Assembly (NCBI GenBank): GCA_030525795.1
Contig: JAUNEB010000011.1
Coordinates: 1 to 38,897, forward strand
Origin: Aerococcaceae bacterium
GTDB taxonomy: Bacteria > Bacillota > Bacilli > Lactobacillales > Aerococcaceae
Direction of reading: 5' to 3'
DNA: 38,897 bases
Shown here: positions 6,661 through 36,201 of the stretch, piece by piece
Position numbering within the stretch: position 1 is the first letter of the stretch
Layout of the letters: each line of letters opens with the position of its first letter
The notes under the pieces: model-generated
Told to the model about the DNA's origin: nothing
What the model saw: only the letters and a program-made list of their open reading frames with translations
Database searches by the model: none
Position numbers and translations under genes: made by a program

Positions 6661-7791
6661 ATGACCTCTCCTAAGATTGCTATTATCGGCGGCGGCATCG
6701 TCGGATCAACAGCCGCTTATTATTTAAGTCGCGCGGGATTTTCGGTGACGCTTTTTGATGAAGGAACGGGACAAGCGACAAAGGCGGCAGCTGGCATTAT
6801 TTGCCCGTGGTTCACACTGCGCCGCAATAAACCTTGGTATTTTCTCGTGTCTAATGGCGCTGAATTTTATCGCAAAATGATGGCTGATCTTGCAGAAGAT
6901 GGCTTTCATACGGAGGCTATTTTTCAAGAAGACGGCGCCCTCATCATCCGCAAAAATCAAGAAAGCCTTGACCGCGATCTCGTGCAAGGTGCGATCAAAC
7001 GCGAATTATCGCCCTCTATCGGCGAACTGCATAGCGTTACTTCTAGCGACCTTCCTACTTATTTCCCCTTACTCGACACTCCTCACGGCGCGACCTACGT
7101 CCAAGGCGGTGGCAAATTAGACGGTGAAGCCCTTATCGAAACGCTCCACCAAGCCGTTCTCAAATTTGGCGGTACCATCCTCCACGAAAATGCCCAACTT
7201 ACGTTACACGAACGCCAGCTCGGCATCGAATCCCCTAATCATCCTCACCAACAATACGACCGCATCTTGTTAGCGGTCGGTGCATGGTTACCCCATTTGC
7301 TAACGCCACTTGGCTATCACGTCGATATTCGCCCACAAAAAGGACAATTATATAGTATCTTCAACCCCGAATGGCAAGACAAACATTACCCTGTCGTCAT
7401 GCCGCCTGGAAAAGTCGACATTATTCCTTTTAATAACGGTGAAATTGTTATCGGCGCTTCACATGAAGACGACAAAGGCTACGACTTGTCAATTGATGAC
7501 ACACAGCTTGATGAATTAGCGACTCAAGCCAATCAATGGATTTCAAACGTATCACACGACGTACACCACCGCACAAAAGTCGGAATTCGCGCCTACACTT
7601 CAGACGCATCTGTCATTGTAGGCCCCGTTCCACATTTGGATCACGTTTGGGCAGTGAGCGGACTTGGCTCATCAGGACTTACAAGCGGCCCATTTTTGGG
7701 GTATCAATGGAGCCAACTCATCCAAACAGGCCGTTGGGATATTTCACAAGAAGATTTCCCAATTGAGCGCTATATCAAAAAAGATATGTGA
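6661..7791 (+). CDS. FAD-dependent amino-acid oxidase/dehydrogenase (DadA/ThiO-like DAO family)
   Basis: 376 residues. The N-terminal dinucleotide motif is IIGGGIVGSTAAYYLSRAGF followed by VTLFDE. ATKAAAGIICPWF matches the DAO-family motif after the first strand. GGGKLDGEALIETL and the C-terminal WAVSGLGSSGLTSGP complete the fold. Members oxidise D-amino acids, glycine or sarcosine; the substrate cannot be read from the sequence. RBS GAAAGTTGGGA is weak; a -10 TATAAT stands at 6620-6625 without a good -35. It is probably a single-gene unit, as mscL has a separate leader. Confidence 0.85.
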   Translation: MTSPKIAIIGGGIVGSTAAYYLSRAGFSVTLFDEGTGQATKAAAGIICPWFTLRRNKPWYFLVSNGAEFYRKMMADLAEDGFHTEAIFQEDGALIIRKNQESLDRDLVQGAIKRELSPSIGELHSVTSSDLPTYFPLLDTPHGATYVQGGGKLDGEALIETLHQAVLKFGGTILHENAQLTLHERQLGIESPNHPHQQYDRILLAVGAWLPHLLTPLGYHVDIRPQKGQLYSIFNPEWQDKHYPVVMPPGKVDIIPFNNGEIVIGASHEDDKGYDLSIDDTQLDELATQANQWISNVSHDVHHRTKVGIRAYTSDASVIVGPVPHLDHVWAVSGLGSSGLTSGPFLGYQWSQLIQTGRWDISQEDFPIERYIKKDM

Positions 7792-7888
7792 AAACGATTT
7801 TATTCATTTTTCAATACATATTCATTGAAGGATACTATATAATCCATCTTGGAACTAAAATAAAACGAGAAAAAGAGGAAATTATCTT

Positions 7889-8251
7889 ATGTTAAAAGAT
7901 TTAAAAGCATTTTTATTACGTGGTAATATTTTAGACTTAGCCGTTGCCGTTGTTATCGGTGGCGCATTCGGTGCAATCGTTGCATCTTTCGTAGCAGACA
8001 TCGTTACACCAATTATCGGTATGATTTTTGGCCAACCAGATTTCTCTGCAATCAAATTAGGTTCAATTATGATCGGTAACTTCATCAACGCAGTTATCAA
8101 CTTCCTCATCATTGGTACAACATTATTCTTCGTTGTAAAAGCTGCTGAAAAAGCAATGCCTAAAAAAGTTGAAGAGCCAGCTGCACCAGCAGGCCCAACT
8201 CAAGAAGAATTATTAGCAGAAATTCGCGACTTATTAGCAAAAAACAACTAA
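7889..8251 (+). CDS. mscL: Large-conductance mechanosensitive channel MscL
   Basis: 120 residues. MLKDLKAFLLRGNILDLAVA is the MscL N-terminal amphipathic helix leading into TM1, with the conserved VVIGGAFGAIV pore motif. TM2 is about residues 68-92 (FINAVINFLIIGTTLFFVVK), and the C-terminal helix is PTQEELLAEIRDLLA. It is a homopentameric channel that opens on hypo-osmotic shock. RBS AGAGGAAA; -10 TATAAT at 7838-7843. It is closed by a strong bidirectional terminator facing the regulator gene. Confidence 0.97.
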   Translation: MLKDLKAFLLRGNILDLAVAVVIGGAFGAIVASFVADIVTPIIGMIFGQPDFSAIKLGSIMIGNFINAVINFLIIGTTLFFVVKAAEKAMPKKVEEPAAPAGPTQEELLAEIRDLLAKNN

Positions 8252-8271
8252 TCACACACTTACATAGTTCC

Positions 8272-8309
8272 AAAAAAAGATACTCTACATCTTTGTAGAG
8301 TATCTTTTT
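8272..8309. terminator. Bidirectional terminator between mscL and the PlcR-like regulator
   Basis: AAGATACTCTACA (8277-8289) pairs with TGTAGAGTATCTT (8294-8306) across TCTT, with A/T runs on both sides, so it can serve both convergent genes. Confidence 0.9.
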
Positions 8310-8311
8310 AT

Positions 8312-9163
8312 TTATGCTTTATCTAATTTAGATTGCAAGCGTTCAATATACACTTTCAATTGCACATTATTCTTTAAATCCGCCACGAGAGAGGCTTTAG
8401 CTAAATATTTTTTAGCTTCGTCATATTTTTTGTCGGCTTCATACGCATCTGCGATTAAAAATAGCAAATCATCAACTAAATATAAGCTGGATTTTTCAAC
8501 GGCTAATTGTAATGCGAGTTGTGCATTAAAAACAGAATCAACATAGTCGGCAAGATAAAACTTCACCAATGAAGCAGTATAATGAAGTTTTTGTCTTACG
8601 TGAAATTTAACGGGAATACGTTTAACAAGCTCAATACCTTTATCTACATATTCCGCAGCCTTCTTGTAATTGTTAATGCGAGTATAATTACCTGCAATTC
8701 CATTATAGAGATTAACTTTTAAATCCATATCCGCTTCCGTTTGCTTTTCTAATTTAGTCACTAGATTAGTCATTTTATTAATTGCTTCCTCTATTTTGCC
8801 ATAATTTTCTGCTAAAATGACGCCTTCTAACCACTCGCGATGAAAACTTTCTAATACATACACATTTTGTGAGTCAGTTGTATTCAAGTATGTTTCAAGC
8901 ATATCATACTGTCTAAATTCAAGCATATTATTGATATAATCCGTCAGTTTTTCTTGGTAATTTTCAGGTGCTTCCCCAATTAATTCAGATACAGATACAC
9001 CCAATCGCTTCGCAATTAAAATTAATAAATCAATGTCAGGACGCAGTTGTTTCTTTTCGATTTTTGAAATCATTCCTTGACTACAAATTCCTTCGGCCAA
9101 TTCAGCTTGTCTAATCTCCTTTTGGCGACGAATACGTTTAATATTATCAGCATAATGCCCCAT
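8312..9163 (-). CDS. PlcR-like (RRNPP-type) HTH-TPR regulator, probable peptide-pheromone receptor
   Basis: 283 residues. Residues 7-61 are an XRE-type HTH (IKRIRRQKEIRQAELAEGI, then SQGMISKIEKKQLRPDIDLL). Residues of about 70-280 are all-helical and read as TPR-like repeats, for example KVNLYNGIAGNYTRINNYKKA, AAEYVDKGIELV and FLIADAYEADKKYDEAKKYL. Length and layout match the RRNPP family (PlcR, NprR, PrgX, Rgg), whose TPR domain binds a short secreted peptide; the HTH ending resembles PlcR most. RBS GAGGAGG; own promoter at 9205-9233. It is divergent from the 39-codon peptide gene at 9310. The peptide-receptor role is inferred from architecture plus that neighbour. Confidence 0.85.
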   Translation of the reverse strand: MGHYADNIKRIRRQKEIRQAELAEGICSQGMISKIEKKQLRPDIDLLILIAKRLGVSVSELIGEAPENYQEKLTDYINNMLEFRQYDMLETYLNTTDSQNVYVLESFHREWLEGVILAENYGKIEEAINKMTNLVTKLEKQTEADMDLKVNLYNGIAGNYTRINNYKKAAEYVDKGIELVKRIPVKFHVRQKLHYTASLVKFYLADYVDSVFNAQLALQLAVEKSSLYLVDDLLFLIADAYEADKKYDEAKKYLAKASLVADLKNNVQLKVYIERLQSKLDKA

Positions 9164-9186
9164 TTTTATTCCTCCTCAAATATTTT

Positions 9187-9234
9187 TATGTATTCAATGG
9201 TTAGATTATATATTTTTTTATGCTCATTGGCAAG
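9187..9234. repeat. Imperfect direct repeat in the regulator/peptide intergenic region
   Basis: TATGTATTCAATGGTTAG (9187-9204) and TATGCTCATTGGCAAG (9219-9234) share TATG, then TCAxTGG, then AG. One copy covers the -35 of the regulator promoter and the other lies just beyond its -10. This could be the regulator's own binding site. The match is imperfect and AT-rich. Confidence 0.4.
9205..9233 (-). promoter_or_regulatory. Sigma-A promoter of the PlcR-like regulator
   Basis: Minus strand: -35 TTGCCA (plus 9228-9233), exactly 17 bp, -10 TATAAT (plus 9205-9210). It is placed about 40 bp ahead of the regulator ATG. Confidence 0.75.
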
Positions 9235-9250
9235 TTTTTTGATTTTTTTC

Positions 9251-9279
9251 TTGAAATTTTATAATCGTTATTGTATAAT
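9251..9279 (+). promoter_or_regulatory. Sigma-A promoter of the signal-peptide gene
   Basis: -35 TTGAAA (9251-9256), exactly 17 bp, -10 TATAAT (9274-9279). Near consensus, it drives the short TTG-started frame at 9310, about 24 bp after the predicted transcription start. Divergent from the regulator promoter, with 17 bp between the two -35 boxes. Confidence 0.8.
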
Positions 9280-9309
9280 TTATTCATAAAATAAGAAAGG
9301 TGGATTTTT

Positions 9310-9429
9310 TTGTTAAAACGATCTATTAAATTTGCAATAGTTTTATCAATAAGTGCTGTATTTGTAGGTAGCATCCAAAAATCTGGAGGCCCTGTTACAC
9401 CACCAATTGTCAACAAAGCAAATCTTTAA
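9310..9429 (+). CDS. Small exported peptide, candidate pheromone precursor of the PlcR-like regulator
   Basis: 39 codons beginning with TTG. RBS AAAGGTGG (9296-9303) is at good spacing. The product starts MLKRSIK (basic), continues FAIVLSISAVFVG (hydrophobic core) and ends SIQKSGGPVTPPIVNKANL (polar, Gly/Pro-rich), the shape of an exported pro-peptide such as PapR or the PrgX pheromone precursors. It has its own consensus promoter and terminator and is divergent from a PlcR-like receptor gene. I do not recognise the peptide itself. The active form is unknown; in related systems it is a short C-terminal or internal fragment imported by an Opp permease. That it is translated and is the ligand of the neighbouring regulator is inference from context. 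Confidence 0.75.
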   Translation: MLKRSIKFAIVLSISAVFVGSIQKSGGPVTPPIVNKANL

Positions 9430-9437
9430 TTTTATTT

Positions 9438-9470
9438 CCCCATCTCAAACTTGAGATGGGGATCTCTTAT
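9438..9470 (+). terminator. Terminator of the peptide gene
   Basis: CCCCATCTCA (9438-9447) pairs with TGAGATGGGG (9452-9461), followed by a T-rich but interrupted tail. It makes the peptide gene a single-gene transcript of about 175 nt. Confidence 0.75.
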
Positions 9471-9479
9471 ATTTTCCTC

Positions 9480-9507
9480 TTGCTTTTTTGTGCAAGATAA
9501 GTATAAT
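9480..9507 (+). promoter_or_regulatory. Promoter of the tRNA gene
   Basis: -35-like TTGCTT (9480-9485), 16 bp, -10 TATAAT (9502-9507); transcription would begin only a few bases before the tRNA at 9518. Confidence 0.6.
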
Positions 9508-9517
9508 ATAGAGGTAA

Positions 9518-9590
9518 GGTTCATTAGCTCAGTTGGGAGAGCACTAGCTCGACAAGCTAGGGGTCGCTGGTTCGAGCCCGGCATGGACCA
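9518..9590 (+). tRNA. tRNA-Val (GAC anticodon), unusual C33
   Basis: A full cloverleaf: acceptor GGTTCAT with ATGGACC (one T-G pair), D stem GCTC/GAGC, anticodon stem CTAGC/GCTAG, loop TCGACAA, T arm GCTGG-TTCGAGC-CCGGC, discriminator A. The middle of the seven-base loop reads GAC, for valine. Position 33, almost always U, is C here. The 3' CCA is not encoded. It stands alone between its own promoter and a terminator. Gene type is clear; isoacceptor is fairly sure; whether it is fully functional is open. Confidence 0.85.
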
Positions 9591-17986: not shown

Positions 17987-18013
17987 GATAATTTCCTCCA
18001 TTTATAAATCTAG

Positions 18014-18067
18014 TTGTTTGACAATACTATTGAGTTTCCGGGGCTCATAGTGGGGCAAACAATACCG
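18014..18067 (-). ncRNA. L13-type ribosomal leader RNA
   Basis: Between the promoter and rplM, the minus strand forms an outer helix TTGTTTG/CAAACAA (plus 18056-18062 and 18014-18020) and an inner helix CTATGAG/CTCAATAG around a CCCCGGAAA loop. The nested layout and the conserved-looking GCCCC and CCCCGGAAA parts fit the Firmicute L13 leader, where L13 is thought to bind and limit its own expression. Family name from memory; the helices are seen directly. Confidence 0.72.
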
Positions 18068-19384: not shown

Positions 19385-20569
19385 TTATTGAAGTGCTTTT
19401 TTCAACAATTCAACTTTATCCGTTTTTTCCCATGTAAAAGCGTCGTCTTCGCGGCCAAAATGTCCGTACGCTGATGTTTTGCTAAAAATTGGGCGACGCA
19501 ACTGCAACATGTCGATAATGCCACTCGGCGTTAATTTGAATACTTGGCGAACGGCAGACACTAATGCTGTTTCAGATACCGTTCCTGTCCCGAATGTGTC
19601 CACACGAATGGAAACAGGTTCTGCAACCCCAATTGCGTAAGCCAACTGCACTTCGCAACGTTTCGCTAGGCCGGCTGCGACAATATTTTTGGCGATGTAA
19701 CGCGCTGCATAGCTCGCGGAACGGTCAACTTTCGTGGCATCTTTTCCTGAAAATGCACCGCCACCATGACGTGCGTAGCCGCCGTAAGTGTCCACAATAA
19801 TTTTGCGGCCGGTTAAGCCAGAGTCCCCTTTTGGTCCGCCGATAATAAAGCGCCCTGTCGGATTGACAAAAATACGCGTTGCATCGTCAAGCCATTCAGC
19901 TTTGATAACAGGACAAATGACGTGTTCGATTACGTCTGCACGTAATTGTTCTAATGTGACGTCTTCGCTATGCTGTGTGCTGACAACAATCGTATCTACA
20001 CGACGCACTTGTTGCGCTTCGTCGTATTCTACGGTTACTTGCGTTTTGCCGTCTGGTCGCAAATAAGGTAACTTGCCTGTTTTGCGCATTTCGGTTAAAC
20101 GCTGTGCGAGTTGATGACTTAACGCGATTGGGAGCGGCATCAATTCGGGTGTTTCATCACAAGCAAAGCCAAACATTAACCCTTGGTCGCCAGCGCCTAA
20201 TTCTTTTGGTGCAGTTGCGTCATCGCGTGTTTCGAGCGCATCATCAACACCTAAAGCGATGTCTGGAGATTGCTCGTCTAAAGACACAAGCACCGCTACG
20301 TTGCTTGCATCAAATCCATACTTGCCACGATCATAGCCGATTTCCGCAATTTTTTGGCGGACAATTTGTTGAATATCTACGTATGCTTCGGTCGTCACTT
20401 CACCAAAAACGAGCACTAACCCTGTATTGACGGCTGTTTCACACGCAACACGCGCCATCGGATCTTGCGCTAAAATCGCATCTAACACCGCGTCACTAAT
20501 TTGGTCAGCAATTTTATCAGGATGCCCTTCCGTAACCGATTCTGATGTAAATAACTTTCTTTCTTCCAT
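19385..20569 (-). CDS. metK: S-adenosylmethionine synthetase
   Basis: 394 residues from the ATG before [21 protein letters not shown]; the frame could extend 15 codons into the riboswitch, but GGGGGA is at the right distance here. ATP and methionine motifs: GHPDK near the N-terminus, [10 protein letters not shown] (about 115-124), and [18 protein letters not shown] (P-loop-like, about 255). It makes SAM from ATP and methionine. The SMK-box riboswitch in its leader makes it repressed when SAM is high. Monocistronic. Confidence 0.98.
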
Positions 20570-20576
20570 GTTTATT

Positions 20577-20656
20577 CCCCCATTTATTACATATTGGTTA
20601 CAAGGCATATCCAACTATATTACAAGTGGACCCTATCGGGATATTTATGTTGTAAC
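20577..20656 (-). promoter_or_regulatory. SMK-box (SAM-III) riboswitch of metK
   Basis: On the minus strand GTTACAA (plus 20650-20656) pairs perfectly with TTGTAAC (plus 20597-20603), and the aptamer contains ATCCCGATAGGG and GATATGCCTTGTAACC, closely resembling the Enterococcus metK SMK box. The GGGGG of the metK ribosome site (plus 20577-20581) is the element sequestered on SAM binding in this family. It acts at translation initiation. Confidence 0.85.
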
Positions 20657-20678
20657 TCTTTCCATTATACATTACTAT
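20650..20678 (+). promoter_or_regulatory. Candidate promoter of the orphan membrane protein, overlapping the metK leader
   Basis: Plus strand: TTGTAA (20650-20655), 17 bp, TACTAT (20673-20678). The -35 is also one arm of the riboswitch helix read on the other strand. The metK -10 TATAAT (plus 20664-20669) lies inside this spacer, so the two divergent promoters occupy the same DNA and probably exclude each other. Confidence 0.5.
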
Positions 20679-24518: not shown

Positions 24519-24892
24519 AGTAAATTTTAGGTAATCGCGGCTAGAAATAGTTGAGGAAAGTCCATGCTCGCACGCGCTGAGATGCGTGTAGTGTTCGTGC
24601 TTAGCGAAACAATAAGCTAAGGCAACGTGAATCGTTGACGGCAGGAAAAATGACTACGGCTTTGCTATGTCAAAGTATTCTTGAAAGTGCCACAGTGACG
24701 AAGCAATATTGGAAACGGTATTGGTGGAACGCGGTAAACCCCTCGAGCGAGCAACCCAAACTTTGGTAGGGGCACTTTTTCTAGTAGGAAATGAACGAAC
24801 GAAAGAGGCAGTAATTGCAGATAGATGATTACCCAATGGCGCGAGTGCCTATATCGCGTCATTTGACAAAACATGGCTTATCGAAATTTACT
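24519..24892 (+). ncRNA. rnpB: RNase P RNA (class B)
   Basis: Catalytic RNA that matures tRNA 5' ends. The 5' core GAGGAAAGTCCATGCTCGCAC (shown in part) and the GTAGTGTTCGTGC that follows are diagnostic of class B RNase P RNA. The ends pair: AGTAAATTT at 24519-24527 with AAATTTACT at 24884-24892 (P1). The length of about 374 is slightly shorter than the Bacillus subtilis RNA. It starts only six bases after gpsB and is followed by its own terminator. Confidence 0.95.
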
Positions 24893-36041: not shown

Positions 36042-36110
36042 ACATAAAAAATAACCTCCTTATTCTATCACACACAGAGTAAGCAAGTTTTTTTGAATAT
36101 TTCAAAAAAA

Positions 36111-36190
36111 GCCACATCCCTACGTAGGTACTAACCTAATCAGGTACGAAGAGTTCGGCAAGCCGTCTCAGCCATAAAGGCACCCCTTGT
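36111..36190 (-). promoter_or_regulatory. TPP riboswitch (THI element)
   Basis: The minus strand carries the conserved parts in order: AGGGGTGCC, GGCTGAGA, ACCTGATTAGGTTAGTACC and CTACGTAGGGA, the standard thiamin-pyrophosphate aptamer. P1 is short (CACA with TGTG), and a run of seven T begins directly after it, followed by an A-rich stretch that can pair with those T. It represses the transporter-amidase operon when TPP is high. Confidence 0.95.
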
Positions 36191-36201
36191 GATATGCCTT
36201 C

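Follow-up and report, generated by a model that had tools for sequence, protein, structure and literature searches.

A candidate PlcR/TprA-type peptide-pheromone module with a TTG-started peptide gene in an Aerococcaceae bacterium

A PlcR-like receptor gene and a short divergent reading frame lie side by side in the 38,897-nucleotide stretch of Aerococcaceae DNA analyzed here (the window; contig C17 of an assembly of 1.30 Mb with 78% completeness). The best explanation of this pair is a peptide-pheromone module of the PlcR/TprA type, to which we assign a probability of about 0.68. What the sequences show is that the receptor gene is intact, that the divergent peptide frame carries expression signals of its own, that the two promoters stand back to back and that relatives have a pair of this kind. 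The module is probably real and working; secretion of the peptide, its mature form, its binding and a regulon are inferred. It appears to be related to known Bacillus and Streptococcus systems, from which it differs in the core of the peptide and in one residue that binds the peptide.

Organization of the locus

The receptor gene (8,312–9,163, minus strand) is an intact, ATG-started open reading frame encoding 283 residues. On the plus strand, the pro-peptide gene (9,310–9,429) starts with TTG and has 39 codons (MLKRSIKFAIVLSISAVFVGSIQKSGGPVTPPIVNKANL); comparable frames are found in relatives. Its predicted product has the sequence features of a small pro-peptide encoded next to its receptor, with a basic start (KR), a hydrophobic N-terminal stretch, Gly20 and the C-terminal tail GGPVTPPIVNKANL. 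The proposed mature-signal region, approximately PPIVNKANL (9,400–9,426, plus strand), is suggested by the C-terminal signals of PapR and PhrA2 (PMC5007282, PMC5436883). The receptor and peptide reading frames have a G+C content of 33%, compared to 43% for the window, and the 146-bp spacer between the two genes has 20%.

Two back-to-back promoter-like sites are located in this spacer, each matching the consensus at 11 of 12 positions with a 17-bp spacing: TTGAAA-17-TATAAT for the peptide gene (9,251–9,279, plus strand) and TTGCCA-17-TATAAT for the receptor gene (9,205–9,233, minus strand). A plus-strand site of at least 11/12 occurred in 4 of 2,000 first-order Markov copies of the spacer, and sites of 11/12 or better on both strands, as in the real spacer, in none of the 2,000. 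The 1.5-kb region as a whole holds no more promoter-like sites than shuffled sequence does (5, compared to a mean of 6.7). A ribosome-binding site, AAAGGTGG (9,296–9,303, plus strand), is read from the sequence 6 bases before the TTG. Starting 7 bases past the peptide stop codon, a terminator-like stem of 11 pairs, six of them GC (9,437–9,462, plus strand), is followed by TCTCTTATAT, a weak T-tract. Such stems number three in the 1.5-kb region, compared to a mean of 0.8 in shuffled sequences. Another stem, listed on the plus strand by the terminator scan, lies in the interval between mscL and the receptor gene (8,274–8,309) and possibly serves both genes. The short divergent TTG frame with promoter, ribosome site, signal-like N-terminus and terminator-like stem is confirmed as originally described. 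The peptide gene has no Rfam match at gathering thresholds.

The receptor is most similar to PlcR

The receptor combines an N-terminal HTH domain (HTH_3, E = 1.6e-11) with a C-terminal TPR fold in a length class of about 280–300 residues; TPR models match, though under their cut-offs. PlcR was the best match in the PDB with the single receptor sequence (4.4e-4), with a profile of 10 receptor rows (3.2e-24) and with a 21-row profile that contains 17 Bacillales relatives (3.5e-57). The AlphaFold2 model (pLDDT 89.9, pTM 0.74) likewise retrieved PlcR first in Foldseek (3u3w, 1.5e-10, TM 0.65; 2qfc, 7.7e-9, TM 0.71), ahead of ComR (1.0e-5), Rgg3 (5.6e-5) and PrgX (2.7e-4). By both profile and fold, the receptor is nearer to PlcR/TprA than to ComR, Rgg or PrgX, and the original assignment to a PlcR-like HTH-TPR receptor is upheld. 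The Pfam model RNPP_C does not match the window receptor and matches two of the ten members of its clade.

Of the 76 family genomes, 46 contain receptor homologues at E≤1e-3. Full-length homologues with E below 1e-25 are confined, among these 76, to the window genome, G036–G039 and G048, which include Globicatella sanguinis (G036), G. sulfidifaciens (G038) and Ignavigranum ruoffiae (G048; Aerococcaceae, Lactobacillales). Ten receptors, the window's included, form an Aerococcaceae clade (SH-aLRT 99). This placement, separate from the streptococcal receptor clade, and a tail different from that of PhrA set the locus apart from TprA/PhrA proper. A single-protein scan of genome contigs and a scan of viral contigs with the receptor revealed no relative, and a plasmid search returned five records whose regulators are 24–30% identical to it.

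Peptides beside related receptors

Exported-like peptides with a Pro-Pro tail adjoin five of the ten clade receptors, including the window's, and relatives with a comparable peptide beside a homologous receptor belong to Globicatella and Ignavigranum. The tails are GGPVTPPIVNKANL in the window, DTGQKPPIIYATY at L035, DTGQKPPIIYVTQ at L036, DGTLPPSTFERI at L032 and GDGLPPVIWKAPTR at L037; two Globicatella loci share the Pro-Pro core PPII, the window has PPIV, and the remaining two loci have PPST and PPVI. The short frame is neither constant in relatives, being found beside half of the clade receptors, nor always divergent: four of the five peptide genes are divergent, and that of L037 lies upstream of its receptor on the same strand. 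No peptide was found by scanning beside the receptors of L031, L034, L038 and L039, the last two of which sit at contig ends. At L033, the expected place is occupied by a lipoprotein-like frame of 34 residues, which repeats the N-terminus of a lipoprotein. A lipoprotein gene (MKKILLLIALFFIAGCSE...) adjoins paralogous receptors at L031 (343–1473) and L033 (3060–4341) and is a possible target or signal source.

A profile of the peptides matched seven places in the 76 family genomes at E≤1.5e-11, all beside clade receptors; six of the seven had themselves been in the profile. Beyond these, matches begin at 0.0027 and fall mostly on the signal-like N-termini of longer frames. Among 398 genomes drawn from the class, the profile matched the window alone at E≤1e-4; this draw cannot have included G037, G039 or G048, all of which were matched in the family search.

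Genome G037, of the genus Globicatella, carries three tandem pro-peptide copies beside a single receptor (L035 and L114; G037:C1:1639290, 1639701, 1640111), the third with its own terminator-like stem. Copies 2 and 3 differ by four synonymous and no other codon changes, and copies 1 and 2 by one nonsynonymous change. Between the peptide genes of G037 and G039, dN is 0.31–0.32 and dS 1.06–1.75. The Globicatella copies look constrained at the protein level. The window tail is not significantly like those of its relatives, which speaks against a simple pheromone reading. With a profile of the relatives' peptides from which the window peptide was left out, a search of the window genome did not report that peptide at E≤10, and the one match (0.049) lies elsewhere. 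Among 5,000 shuffled window tails, 1,096 scored as well as the real one against the Aerococcaceae profile, 4,774 against the profile of family f6 (Lactobacillales, described below) and 1,764 against both together; Pro-Pro 5–9 residues from the end arose in 407 of 5,000 shuffles. Homology of the window tail with those of its relatives is unsupported by the leave-one-out and tail-shuffle tests, and the case for the window peptide therefore rests on position, signals and context.

Pro-Pro occurs in 19 of 88 exported-like frames near receptors and in 6 of 77 elsewhere (Fisher p = 0.016; rows related). One of these six is a tandem copy belonging to a receptor, and two of the 19 (L082, L086) are PapR-type with Pro-Pro outside the LPYE tail. 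The enrichment near receptors is weak.

Peptide-contact residues

In RNPP proteins, an Asn (RapF N227) fixes the peptide backbone and has been termed strictly conserved (PMC3601957); K197 of PlcR holds the peptide C-terminus (PMC5007282). We matched RapF N227 to PlcR N201 on spacing: RapF R223 and PlcR K197, which clamp the C-terminus, each precede the matched Asn by four residues. The window receptor has Thr196 at this position, and one of the ten Aerococcaceae clade rows has Asn. This loss, which the original description did not mention, also speaks against a simple pheromone reading. Outside the clade, Asn is found in 62 of 64 rows: 17/18 in Bacillales, 11/11 in the f6 receptors with Pro-Pro peptides, 9/9 on the PhrA side, 7/7 in the DPG group, and 18 of 19 in a set made up of 17 f6 rows without a peptide and two misplaced f4 rows (L057, L061). 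The clamp lysine is kept as K192 (PlcR K197) in the window receptor, and Lys is present in nine of the ten clade rows. Replacement of the Asn by Thr196 while K192 is kept suggests that the clade probably anchors its peptide in another way. A lineage that lacks the supposedly invariant Asn, yet has a peptide gene beside half of its receptors, makes the role of this residue directly testable.

PlcR K87 and K89 meet the Glu of PapR. In their place the window receptor has Glu and Arg, and a tail that lacks the PapR Glu would fit these altered positions, a correspondence that does not amount to a test.

Peptide types on the receptor tree

As a positive control, the Bacillales loci showed a divergent exported-like frame in 10 of 17 cases, and in six of these the frame has the ending LP(F/Y)E(H/N). 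Two Alkalihalobacterium loci with Bacillales PlcR-like receptors (L075, L076) have divergent exported-like peptides ending in GKPGYVHSD and GKPPYIHSD, unlike PapR tails. A second positive control, genus g24, has divergent PhrA-type tails at five loci, of which two are the published heptapeptide LDVGKAD (PMC5436883) and one is VDLGLAD. Other loci have downstream IDPG tails like the S. thermophilus peptide described in PMC12445099. Its peptides suggest that g24 is Streptococcus.

In family f6, one receptor group has a downstream, same-strand exported-like peptide with an (L/I)PP(V/L/F) core at 11 of 12 fetched loci (L139, L140, L152–L155, L170–L174). These cores, together with the DPG core of streptococcal PapR/TprA-like peptides (PMC12445099), overturn the earlier impression that the tail had no known parallel. 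For a second f6 receptor group of 17 rows (L047–L056, L058–L060, L062–L064, L067), no convincing peptide gene was found nearby; small frames are present at L048, L058 and L063, and Pro-Pro frames overlap other genes or the receptor.

The five peptide types require five changes on a receptor tree of 108 rows, compared to a possible minimum of four and a mean of 20.9 after shuffling, and the Pro-Pro type alone requires three. This tree omits L009–L030 (except L011, L014, L020 and L026) and the re-fetched L128, L129, L132, L133 and L175. Peptide type follows the receptor tree, in a comparison whose labels were assigned after the peptides had been read and which was not blind. Support is 99 for the Aerococcaceae clade, 100 for f6, 100 for g24 and 97 for Bacillales; the tree does not resolve the order in which these lineages branch.

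Comparison with known systems and proposed mechanism

The module resembles PlcR/PapR of the Bacillus cereus group (2qfc, 3u3w) in its receptor of HTH and five TPRs, which is the best profile and fold match, in the small exported-type pro-peptide gene adjoining the receptor (10 of the 17 Bacillales relatives have it in divergent orientation), and in the retained clamp lysine. In B. cereus itself, papR is downstream of plcR (PMC9765709). Unlike in PlcR/PapR, the window tail has no LP(F/Y)E core, and the receptor has Glu at K87 and Thr at N201. The PlcR box TATGNANNNNTNCATA is absent from the window spacer, where the best site has three mismatches. A comparison of 11 spacers revealed no PlcR box or shared operator; the best box sites have one mismatch at L034 and two at L031, L036, L074 and L085, and spacer palindromes vary from locus to locus.

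With TprA/PhrA and TprA2/PhrA2 of Streptococcus pneumoniae, the module shares a PlcR-family receptor in Lactobacillales and a peptide gene on the opposite strand; the signal in those systems is C-terminal (PMC5436883). It differs from them in its tail, the PhrA ending being (L/V)D(V/L)G(K/L)AD, and in the Asn, which PhrA-side receptors keep. The PapR/TprA-like system of S. thermophilus and S. salivarius, also a PlcR-family receptor in Lactobacillales, has an exported pro-peptide of ~45 residues whose C-terminal peptide was detected by LC-MS/MS (PMC12445099). Unlike the window peptide, it has the core IDPGPAN, and in comparable loci of our set the peptide gene follows the receptor gene in the same orientation.

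In the proposed mechanism, Sec would export the pro-peptide via its N-terminus, processing would leave a C-terminal piece near PPIVNKANL, and an oligopeptide permease would bring this piece back into the cell; the window genome encodes three SBP_bac_5 (OppA-type) proteins. The imported peptide would then enter the TPR groove and alter the action of the receptor on the shared spacer. TprA2 is reported to keep its own peptide gene repressed in the absence of the peptide (PMC5436883). Since the promoter of the window peptide gene is near consensus, we favor a TprA2/PhrA2-like mode, in which the peptide lifts repression, over activation as in PlcR/PapR. For PlcR, the proline of PapR and its final two residues are described as critical (PMC6568020), and the Pro-rich core is in keeping with the groove.

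Alternative explanations

The receptor could be a genuine PlcR-type protein whose signal does not come from the short frame: the frame would then specify a different small peptide, exported or membrane-bound, or the receptor would now sense some other ligand. In favor of this are the loss of the peptide-gripping Asn in nine of the ten clade rows, the five clade receptors for which no peptide was found, the f6 receptor group lacking a convincing one, and a window tail without significant similarity to those of relatives. We nevertheless consider it unlikely, since peptide and receptor co-occur in Globicatella and Ignavigranum at the position used by the PapR and PhrA types, and the clamp lysine is kept in nine of the ten rows.

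A chance, untranslated open frame in an A+T-rich spacer is more improbable still. The TTG start, the length of 39 codons, the lack of a close homologue for a codon test and the 20% G+C of the spacer are compatible with it; against it, promoter, ribosome site, signal-like N-terminus, stop codon and terminator-like stem are in register, and exported-like frames with a ribosome-binding site are uncommon, with 68 distinct ones in 539 kb of fetched, partly redundant DNA and 61 in 600 kb of simulated sequence. None of the 61 simulated frames has Pro-Pro 3–9 residues from its end. As the best reading we retain the original one, in which the divergent gene encodes the pro-peptide of a PlcR-like receptor, given the Globicatella and Ignavigranum pairs and the divergent PapR and PhrA types elsewhere.

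A further proposal is that Aerococcaceae speak a distinct dialect of PlcR/TprA-kind pheromones, in which the signals have Pro-Pro cores, alike in kind to the (L/I)PP(V/L/F) cores of f6, the receptors have dropped an otherwise near-universal Asn, and a stiff peptide is held by another anchor. We regard this as tentative and, on balance, doubtful.

Host range and genomic context

A 2022 survey reported no PlcR systems in Lactobacillales (PMC9765709); in other papers, streptococcal TprA has been grouped with PlcR (PMC12700828, PMC12445099). Among the papers listed by literature searches, none was on a PlcR-type system in Aerococcaceae. The main texts of PMC9765709, PMC10075063 and PMC12700828 contain no mention of 'aerococc', and a supplement may list such hosts. 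The module would add Aerococcaceae, and probably one more family, to the hosts of PlcR-type systems. Small-gene calling restricted to ATG would miss the peptide, and in line with the prediction that the TTG start hides it, RRNPP_detector would pass over it at its default ATG setting (PMC10075063).

The same-genus genome G003 has the oxidase and mscL genes adjacent, as in the window. After mscL, up to the contig end, no receptor-peptide module was found in G003, where mscL is instead followed by a tRNA-Leu gene in the opposite orientation. This one genome suggests that the module may have been inserted next to a tRNA gene. When L184 (G003:C9, contig end) is compared to window positions 6,661–9,590, the oxidase-mscL pair is kept without the module and adjoins a different tRNA gene. 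Elsewhere in the window, Rfam matches correspond to an L13 leader (18,011–18,066, minus strand), a SAM-III riboswitch (20,567–20,660, minus strand), RNase P class B (24,523–24,885, plus strand) and a TPP riboswitch (36,100–36,197, minus strand).
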